Shown piece after piece: positions 50,801 through 52,725 of a stretch of DNA of 64,000 nucleotides. This stretch comes from Qipengyuania qiaonensis (GTDB lineage Bacteria; Pseudomonadota; Alphaproteobacteria; Sphingomonadales; Sphingomonadaceae): NCBI RefSeq assembly GCF_019711515.1, contig NZ_JAIGNO010000001.1:496001-560000 (forward strand), read 5' to 3'. Made by a program: the position numbers and the translations under genes. The notes beneath the pieces are model-generated. The model was not told the DNA's origin, did no database searches, and saw only the letters and a list, made by a program, of their open reading frames with translations. Every line of letters starts with the position of its first letter. Position 1 is the first letter of the stretch.

Positions 50801-52041
50801 ACGCCAAACAGCTCCAGCTGCTCGGCCTTGGGGGCCAGGAGACTGCGCAAATCGGCACGATCGGTAAGCGTTACGGGGCGCCAGTCGACCGTGCAGATGA
50901 AAGGCCGTATCTTGACGATCGAGACTGTCAGCCGTGCAATATCGTCGAGCCGCAGCGCCCGATGGCGACGGCTGGTCAGGATATTGCCTACCGCTTTCAC
51001 GCCGAGTCCCGGGACACGTAGCAACTGCTCTTTCGTGCCCCGGTTTACATCGACCGGAAACTGGTCACGAAACTTCAGCGCCCAAGCCAGTTTGGGATCG
51101 ATGTCGAGTGGCAGGTTTCCATCCGCTTCGGTAGCCTCCATCACATCGGTCGGCTTGTAGCCGTAGAAGCGCATAAGCCAGTCGGACTGGTATAGCCGAT
51201 GCTCCCGGATCAGAGGCGGACGTTTGAGCGGCAGCACGGCGCTCGCATCAGGGATAGGGGAAAAAGCGCTGTAATAGACACGACGTAAGTTGAAGGCGGT
51301 GTACAGGCTGCTCGCCTTCCCGACGATATCCGCATCGGTCGCGGCATCGGCACCGACAATCATCTGTGTCGACTGGCCCGCCGGCGCGAAGCGCGGCGCG
51401 TGCCTGAAGCGTTTGCAGGCATCTTTCAACTCTACGATGTCGTTCCTGACCTTCCCCATTGCCCCCTCGATCTGGCGGCCATTCTTGTCGGGAGCGAGGC
51501 GGGTGAGCCCGCTATCGGTCGGCAGTTCGACATTGATCGAAATCCGGTCGGCATAGAGCCCTGCCTGATGAACAATCTCAGGATCTGCCTCGGGAATGGT
51601 CTTGAGATGGATGTATCCGCGGAAATCATGCTCGTCTCGCAGGATACGCGCAACTTCCACGAGCTGCTCCATGGTGTAGCTCGAGTTCTTCACGATACCC
51701 GAGGACAGAAACAGCCCTTCGATGTAATTGCGCCGGTAGAAGGCGAGTGTGAGGTCCACCACCTCCTGCGGCGTGAACCGCGCGCGGACTACGTTCGAAC
51801 TCTTGCGATTAACGCAGTAGTGGCAGTCGAAAACACAATGATTGGTCAATAAAATCTTCAGCAGCGAGATACATCTGCCATCAGGCGCGTAGGCATGGCA
51901 AATGCCCATTCCTTCCGTCGAGCCAATGCCCTTCCCACCCAGCGAATTGCGCTTGGCAGTCCCGGAAGACGCACAGGAAGCATCGTACTTGGCAGCGTCC
52001 GCCAAAATTTCCAGTTTCTGCAAGACAGTTTGCGCAGGCAT
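50797..52041 (-). CDS. Putative DNA modification/repair radical SAM protein
   Basis: 414-aa radical-SAM protein, upstream partner of UdgX. The cluster motif is C69-x3-C73-x2-C76 (CVFDCHYC), which ligates the [4Fe-4S] cluster, unusually preceded by KILLTNH. N-terminal Cys residues (C23, C48, C57) could bind a second cluster. A C-terminal helix-hairpin-helix region (LLRVPGLGVKAVGNIL) suggests DNA binding. Substrate is unknown. ATG 52041 lies within bases of a LexA box and -10 element; the homologous body begins at about residue 7 (LQKLEILADAAKYD). Confidence 0.9.
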   Translation of the reverse strand: MPAQTVLQKLEILADAAKYDASCASSGTAKRNSLGGKGIGSTEGMGICHAYAPDGRCISLLKILLTNHCVFDCHYCVNRKSSNVVRARFTPQEVVDLTLAFYRRNYIEGLFLSSGIVKNSSYTMEQLVEVARILRDEHDFRGYIHLKTIPEADPEIVHQAGLYADRISINVELPTDSGLTRLAPDKNGRQIEGAMGKVRNDIVELKDACKRFRHAPRFAPAGQSTQMIVGADAATDADIVGKASSLYTAFNLRRVYYSAFSPIPDASAVLPLKRPPLIREHRLYQSDWLMRFYGYKPTDVMEATEADGNLPLDIDPKLAWALKFRDQFPVDVNRGTKEQLLRVPGLGVKAVGNILTSRRHRALRLDDIARLTVSIVKIRPFICTVDWRPVTLTDRADLRSLLAPKAEQLELFGV

Positions 52042-52043
52042 TC

Positions 52044-52076
52044 GTTCTTTATATGTTCCAATTGATGCACTGCCAA
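52044..52076 (-). promoter_or_regulatory. LexA (SOS) box within a promoter, upstream of radical SAM/UdgX
   Basis: GTTC-N7-GTTC (52044-52058 on the + strand), the alphaproteobacterial LexA box. On the minus strand the -35 TTGGCA (complement 52071-52076) and -10 TATAAA (complement 52048-52053) are 17 bp apart, and the -10 lies inside the box. The start codon at 52041-52039 is about where transcription would begin, so the mRNA could be leaderless. Confidence 0.7.
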
Positions 52077-52239
52077 TATCGAATGATGTATCGGCAGCTT
52101 ATGACAGAGATGCTCTTCGGAACGCTTGGTAGCCGATCGTGTCCGCTCGGCGCTCCCAGATCTCTCAACAACGCACAGCGCGGGAGCAAAGCACCGGCCA
52201 GACCATTGGTGGTATGTAGCGTATGTGAGGAGCCAATCC

Positions 52240-52725
52240 ATGAAAGAAGCCCAAGGAAACCCTCAGGAACTCAAGAAGAAATTTTGGCAGGCACTGGCTG
52301 ACAGCCCTTATCTTTTCCTGCAATTGAAGGACAACAGTTCGAGCGCAGTGCCCATGAGCCCGCAACTCGACAAGGATGCGAACAGCGCCATCTGGTTCTT
52401 CACTCACACCAAGAGCGATTTTGCCAGGCTTGGTCCGGTGACCGCAACTTTCGAAGGCAAGGGTCACGACATGTTCGCCCGCTTCGACGGAACGCTAGTG
52501 AAAGAGATCAGCCAGGCACGGTTCGATCAATTCTGGAACAATTTCGTCGAGGCATGGTACGATGGCGGCAAGGACGATCCTGACCTACTGTTTCTGCGAA
52601 TGGATCTGGACAGCGCTGAAATATGGGAAAGTGATATCGGCTTGCTCAACACGGCGAAAATGGCGCTCGGTATGACCGTGCATGACGAGGCTGAAAAACA
52701 CCACGTCGATACGGTCGACCTTTAG
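52240..52725 (+). CDS. Pyridoxamine 5'-phosphate oxidase-like general stress protein
   Basis: 161-aa split-barrel flavin-binding protein similar to general stress protein 26-like members. Visible are FLQLKDNSSSAVPMSPQLDKD, IWFFTHTKSDFARLG and the late ARFDGTLVKEI, WNNFVEAWYDGGKDDPDLLFLRMDLDSAEIWES region. GAGGAG (52227-52232) is 7 bases before ATG 52240, which outweighs a longer upstream frame. It is divergent from the SOS operon. The function, perhaps flavin-linked stress protection, is not shown. Confidence 0.85.
   Translation: MKEAQGNPQELKKKFWQALADSPYLFLQLKDNSSSAVPMSPQLDKDANSAIWFFTHTKSDFARLGPVTATFEGKGHDMFARFDGTLVKEISQARFDQFWNNFVEAWYDGGKDDPDLLFLRMDLDSAEIWESDIGLLNTAKMALGMTVHDEAEKHHVDTVDL

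Follow-up and report, generated by a model that had tools for sequence, protein, structure and literature searches.

A predicted LexA operator, a -10 element and the start codon of a radical-SAM gene lie almost on top of one another in the window, our term for the whole stretch of 64,000 nt analysed here from Qipengyuania qiaonensis (GCF_019711515.1, contig NZ_JAIGNO010000001.1, positions 496,001-560,000). The locus raises the question of whether the switch that responds to DNA damage also fixes where the mRNA and the protein begin, i.e. whether the operon is read from a leaderless transcript. Judging from the sequence, a damage switch, part of a promoter and the first codon of a repair operon share about 20 bases (Table 1).

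Table 1. Features of the predicted operon and its promoter in the window.
Feature	Position	Strand	Basis
-35 element TTGGCA	52071..52076	-	read from sequence; TTGRC-like columns kept in orthologous promoters
Predicted LexA operator GAACATATAAAGAAC, GAAC-N7-GAAC	52044..52058	-	perfect direct repeat
-10 element TATAAA inside LexA box	52048..52053	-	read from sequence; 17-nt spacer to -35
ATG start codon, its A (52041) being the predicted transcription start	52039..52041	-	read from sequence
Radical-SAM protein TIGR03916, 414 aa	50797..52041	-	569.5 bits against a cut-off of 343.5
DUF4130 + UdgX fusion, 484 aa	49346..50800	-	TIGR03915/DUF4130 and TIGR03914/UdgX matches

The packed site and the genes behind it

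The minus-strand arrangement TTGGCA-N17-TATAAA was reread from the sequence, and every coordinate given for it in the original prediction was right. The placement of the -10 inside a perfect LexA-type box was also borne out: TATAAA forms bases 6-11 of GAACATATAAAGAAC (52058-52044), which on the plus strand reads GTTCTTTATATGTTC, a GTTC-N7-GTTC repeat at 52044-52058. After TATAAA comes GAACGA and then the ATG, with 2 nt (GA) between the end of the box and the start codon on the minus strand. Counting from the -10, the A of this ATG comes seventh, which is the usual position for transcription to start; the claim that translation begins within a few bases of the predicted transcription start can thus be sharpened, as the predicted start is the A of the ATG itself, at 52041. 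An in-frame stop lies 60 nt upstream of the ATG, which is the sole in-frame ATG, GTG or TTG after that stop. A strict consensus promoter scan of 51900-52300 returned 0 promoters, because it requires T as the last base of the -10, where the window has A.

The DUF4130-UdgX gene begins within the end of the radical-SAM gene, the two sharing 4 nt (ATGA). The UdgX part scores 315.5 bits against the TIGR03914 cut-off of 189.95 and aligns with solved UdgX structures, sharing GEQPGD with the best-matching chain and placing KRRLH opposite its KRRIH. The hallmarks of UdgX, as given in the available text of PMC10359453, are an R-loop KRRIH, a motif A GEQPG and a motif B HPS(S/A)(L/V)(L/V)R; motif B here is HPSYLLR, the S/A position being taken by a Y. 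Score, R-loop and motif A, together with a motif B that deviates at this Y, assign the protein to the UdgX family by prediction, and the R-loop His, the residue of the predicted covalent AP-site chemistry, is present. Its neighbour is predicted by score and by a CxxxCxxC motif to be the TIGR03916 radical-SAM partner; C69, C73 and C76 are invariant in 9 sequences, and a comparison of this protein with solved structure chains gave no match at E 0.001.

Conservation of the box and its probable place in the LexA regulon

An exact GTTC-N7-GTTC occurs once in the 64-kb window, against a mean of 1.75 in shuffled sequence, so the single box is not significant alone and its significance rests on conservation before orthologues. 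The 1.75 boxes expected by chance are what speaks for reading the GAAC repeats as a chance match before an operon that is not under LexA. Over the whole genome we find 114 boxes, compared with 75 for the reversed pattern.

TIGR03916 has a match in 38 of 61 genomes (the window's own plus 60 relatives), 37 of them above the cut-off; the family is present in 36 of the 37 genomes of the window's own genus and in 2 of the 24 others, one weakly. We searched for the same box before orthologous pairs, as proposed with the original prediction. In a first set of 30 loci, the window's own included, a perfect GAAC-N7-GAAC stands just before the ATG in 29, the exception (L009) coming from another family. 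A second set, biased to close relatives because only the best 80 of 582 relatives were kept, has a perfect box in 77/80, with one mismatch in L087, L095 and L117. Altogether, a perfect box in either orientation lies upstream at 106 of the 110 orthologous loci, which are not all independent, since three pairs have identical proteins. The box is in the opposite orientation in five loci (L106, L107, L114, L116 and L119) and in the GAAC orientation in the rest. We reject the chance-match reading on the strength of this conservation across orthologues; SOS control of the pair has also been reported (available text of PMC8565304), and we regard an accidental box as extremely improbable.

The spacing of the box is conserved too. 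Among the 105 GAAC-oriented loci the distance from box to ATG is 2 nt in 84, 3 nt in 6, 1 nt in 2 and 4 nt in 1, and the other 12, which include L009 and L117 with one mismatch each, have 7-28 nt. A GAAC-oriented box with at most one mismatch thus stands 1-4 nt before the ATG in 93/110 loci. These 93 close loci comprise 90 distinct promoter sequences, and their hosts include Qipengyuania, Tsuneonella, Pelagerythrobacter, Croceicoccus, Novosphingobium, Sphingomonas, Sphingobium, Stakelama, Sphingorhabdus and Brevundimonas. In a quick tree of the 110 proteins, the window's radical-SAM protein groups among Erythrobacteraceae.

In the genome of the window, perfect boxes precede lexA itself, recA and an imuA-like gene. 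We take COG4277 and COG1573 to be the radical-SAM/UdgX pair of the window. In the available text of PMC8565304, the alphaproteobacterial LexA motif is given as a GTTC-N7-GTTC direct repeat, SOS regulation of a UDG-based repair system is described for Verrucomicrobia and Alphaproteobacteria (with reference to Paes da Rocha 2008 and Erill 2016), and a two-gene COG1573-COG4277 operon is predicted to be regulated likewise in Bacteroidetes. The SOS genes of C. crescentus are described without a radical-SAM/UdgX pair in the available text of PMC1839093. With the box fixed before orthologues, a lexA gene carrying its own box and a pair reported to be SOS-regulated, the predicted LexA control of the radical-SAM/DUF4130-UdgX operon is very probably real. 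SOS control of the pair is already known, because the available text of PMC8565304 reports the UDG-based operon as SOS-regulated. A literature search of titles and abstract openings, with most subscription papers outside its reach, did not find the fused operator/-10/start-codon arrangement. The operator before the window's operon is the same as that of the alphaproteobacterial LexA regulon; unlike the published regulon, as far as its available text goes, operator, -10 and ATG are here fused at fixed spacing across Sphingomonadales and Brevundimonas, an arrangement undescribed there.

The surroundings of the gene are also partly conserved. A match to the window's DUF4130-UdgX protein lies near the radical-SAM gene in 105/110 loci, starting at most 134 nt from its end in 84 and further away in 21. 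Many of those 21 have a gene of about 160 aa between radical-SAM and UdgX; intervening genes of this kind with a similar N-terminus (L066, L071, L077, L084, L085, L086, L090, L091, L101 and L102) occur in Sphingomonas, Stakelama and Novosphingobium relatives, and the only one tested, that of L102, encodes a hemerythrin-domain protein. Upstream of the radical-SAM gene, at least 34 of the 110 loci have an ImuB-like gene on the same strand (at most 1.5 or 3 kb examined), and it ends 44-94 nt upstream in eight of them (L014, L018, L016, L013, L046, L055, L057 and L068); the ImuB-like query from L044 carries IMS domains. The repair pair is thus often found behind SOS mutagenesis genes. Elsewhere in the window's genome, a second radical-SAM gene (L129:1495, C11) has a box GTTCCATATATGTTC that overlaps its first possible start codon.

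Where transcription and translation would begin

A column profile, made from the 90 distinct sequences with the box as anchor, brings out the box itself and a TTGRC-like block at -18..-14. Columns -50..-23 carry at most 0.19 bits each, so no further conserved promoter is seen upstream. Promoters were scored with a sigma-70-type matrix built on E. coli frequencies. The best -10 lies at box position 5 in 79/90 promoters, with a spacer of 17 nt in 63, 16 nt in 9 and 18 nt in 7, and in another register in the remaining 11. The -10 opens with TA in 89/90 and ends with T in just 23/90. With the -10 in this one register in 79/90 promoters, transcription is predicted to begin at the A of the ATG.

The start codon is ATG at each of the 93 close loci. 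In 39 of them there is no alternative in-frame start back to the stop, and in 54 there is a further in-frame start upstream or the sequence ends before a stop. We also considered that the true start codon lies downstream of 52041, behind a short mRNA leader, as might be suggested by the TIGR03916 family match, which begins at residue 7. Against this, invariant residues are found from L10 on in 9 aligned orthologues (aligned from the model match onwards), homologues whose match starts only at residue 8 carry an ATG of their own at the place of the window's ATG, and the ATG is present throughout the close loci; a downstream start is very improbable.

We see no conserved Shine-Dalgarno columns in the profile of the 90 distinct promoters, and on reading the window's TATAAAGAACGA no Shine-Dalgarno sequence was found. 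The two N7 columns where its core would sit carry 0.27 and 0.09 bits. An alternative that retains LexA control would place the transcription start further upstream, with LexA acting as a roadblock at the gene start and an AAGGAAC-like sequence of the box serving as the ribosome site. It is consistent with the SD-like 4-mer found between box start and ATG in 20/90 distinct promoters, and with the existence of one clade that has a real leader, often with an AAAGG-type sequence. Also in its favour, mean anti-SD pairing energy did not separate close from other loci (-2.9 for the 93 close loci vs -3.4 for the 16 others, p 0.36), a comparison that is not discriminating because the 18-nt stretch includes the box. 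However, the columns upstream of the -35 block are not conserved, the -35 and -10 sit at the box in 79/90 promoters, the window's TATAAAGAACGA has no Shine-Dalgarno sequence, and the columns for its core are little conserved, all of which makes a leadered transcript unlikely.

The original prediction of leaderless translation is supported by the 7-nt spacing from -10 to ATG, the fixed 2-nt packing and the lack of conserved SD columns. On this sequence-level evidence the main transcript probably starts without a leader at the A of the ATG, and with good confidence we read the locus as an SOS promoter that merges the LexA operator with the -10 and the start codon and would give a leaderless mRNA. 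In this fused promoter, LexA bound to GAAC-N7-GAAC would cover the -10 and exclude RNA polymerase. RecA-driven self-cleavage of LexA after damage, which frees the operator, is the established SOS mechanism, and after damage it would free the fused site as well. RNA polymerase would then use TTGGCA-17-TATAAA and start at the A of the ATG, and the spacing suggests that the ribosome would read the leaderless mRNA from its 5' end, without a Shine-Dalgarno sequence. The radical-SAM protein would be made first and DUF4130-UdgX would follow through the 4-nt overlapping start, by putative coupling; with such coupling both proteins should increase during the SOS response, like the imuA mutagenesis genes, whose promoters have a box of this kind.

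Leaderless genes occur in Deinococcus, actinobacteria and Caulobacter. Those of D. deserti are cited in the available text of PMC8072749, and one leaderless Caulobacter start appears in that of PMC4287350. Like bacterial leaderless genes, the radical-SAM gene of the window has its -10 about 7 nt before the ATG and would need no Shine-Dalgarno sequence; unlike in the usual ones, its element doubles as the predicted operator of a stress repressor, and conservation before one gene extends to the entire unit. In Deinococcus, an organism rich in leaderless mRNAs, the damage repressor DdrO has its site at repair promoters. The two systems are alike in this placement of a damage-repressor site, whereas repressor and motif are unrelated.

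With slightly less than even confidence, we suggest that Sphingomonadales and Brevundimonas have long kept an operator/-10/first-codon unit of about 20 bp, so that SOS induction yields a leaderless mRNA, and that this may serve fast or SD-independent translation. If so, the repair pair would be translated with minimal delay, or by ribosomes without Shine-Dalgarno selection under damage stress. In the fused arrangement one short conserved sequence would have to satisfy LexA, RNA polymerase and ribosome at once. Promoter type and gene neighbourhood tie a little-understood pair of radical-SAM and DUF4130-UdgX proteins to SOS mutagenesis genes.

Leadered relatives, imuA promoters and other boxes

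One Erythrobacter/Porphyrobacter clade (SH-aLRT 99 in the quick tree of 110 proteins, many of whose deeper forks are weak) has six leadered loci out of eight, the other two being close. The leadered members (L048, L049, L051, L053, L054 and L059) have 13-27 nt from box to ATG, and the leaders of the clade often contain an AAAGG-type sequence. Over the whole tree leader status changes 8 times, vs 11.6 in shuffles, and this clade appears to have gained a leader. It amounts to a natural experiment on leaderless reading, and leadered and leaderless orthologues together offer a test of the role of leaderless translation in the damage response. By eye, some of the clade's leaders could pair GGAAC with GTTCC around an AAAGG-type loop.

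The imuA promoters of the genus provide a contrast. The imuA-like protein of the window's genome, presumably imuA, gave no match in a Pfam search; it has relatives in 35/37 genomes of the genus, and its gene lies on another contig and is diverged, at 33-44% identity to them. In 30/30 imuA loci a perfect box stands near a codon that could open an ORF of 200 aa or more. With the window's own locus excluded, the -10 lies at box position 3 in 29/29, with a spacer of 17 nt in 28 and 16 nt in 1. The ATG comes 17-18 nt past the box in 20/30 loci; in the other ten, some of them ambiguous, the first start found is -8 to 46 nt from the box end. In L155, which is the imuA-like gene of the window's genome, 1 nt separates the box from the ATG; in L156 the gap is 2 nt. 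Like the radical-SAM promoter, then, imuA promoters have a -10 embedded in the LexA box and a 17-nt spacer; unlike it, their -10 is two bp further upstream and, in those 20 loci, the gap from box to ATG is longer. LexA does not force the 2-nt packing, because imuA has its -10 in the box yet 17-18 nt to the ATG. To go by these promoters, the register of the -10 within the box moves together with the -35, and the 2-nt spacing is the radical-SAM gene's own. A preference of LexA could account in part for the ATA with which the N7 opens in radical-SAM and imuA boxes alike. The imuA -35 region GAATTGCGAATC (e.g. L158-L168) also resembles ATTGGCGAATCC, found in many radical-SAM promoters of the genus, which may point to a common promoter ancestry or to a second binding site.

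In the window's genome a box adjoins an ATG 11 times, vs once for the reversed control. The boxes inspected there were chosen by eye among 100 of the 114 listed, taking those with about 4 or more A/T in the N7, the ATG-adjacent ones and that of lexA. A genus-wide class of leaderless SOS genes was considered and dropped, as 16 of 17 ATG-adjacent boxes (in 16 stretches, picked from the relatives' listed matches, mostly with an A/T-rich N7 and with radical-SAM sites excluded) open no ORF of 100 aa. To judge from their reading frames, the other ATG-adjacent boxes of the genus mostly look accidental. The seventeenth, GAACGAAAGGGGAACCATG (L200), has identical letters in 23 of the 25 genomes with matches listed; in the window's genome it falls inside open frames on both strands (L124), and we read it as a coding coincidence. 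Among the 150 matches listed for the genus, the spacing from TATAAT to ATG is 5 nt in 22, 6 nt in 9 and 7 nt in 17, an excess that is weak and not decisive.

Other boxed genes of the window's genome were seen in passing. At L134:2756-6713 (C22), one perfect LexA box precedes an integrase gene and another a Toprim/zinc-finger primase-like gene, and by eye the integrase gene adjoins an apparent tRNA 3' end. G020 and G016 also have two such boxes, spaced by about 3 kb, and the L134 region may be an integrative element wired to the SOS response. Perfect boxes further occur at L141:1586 (C27) and L146:1547 (C28), each upstream of one of two similar S24-peptidase repressor-like genes.
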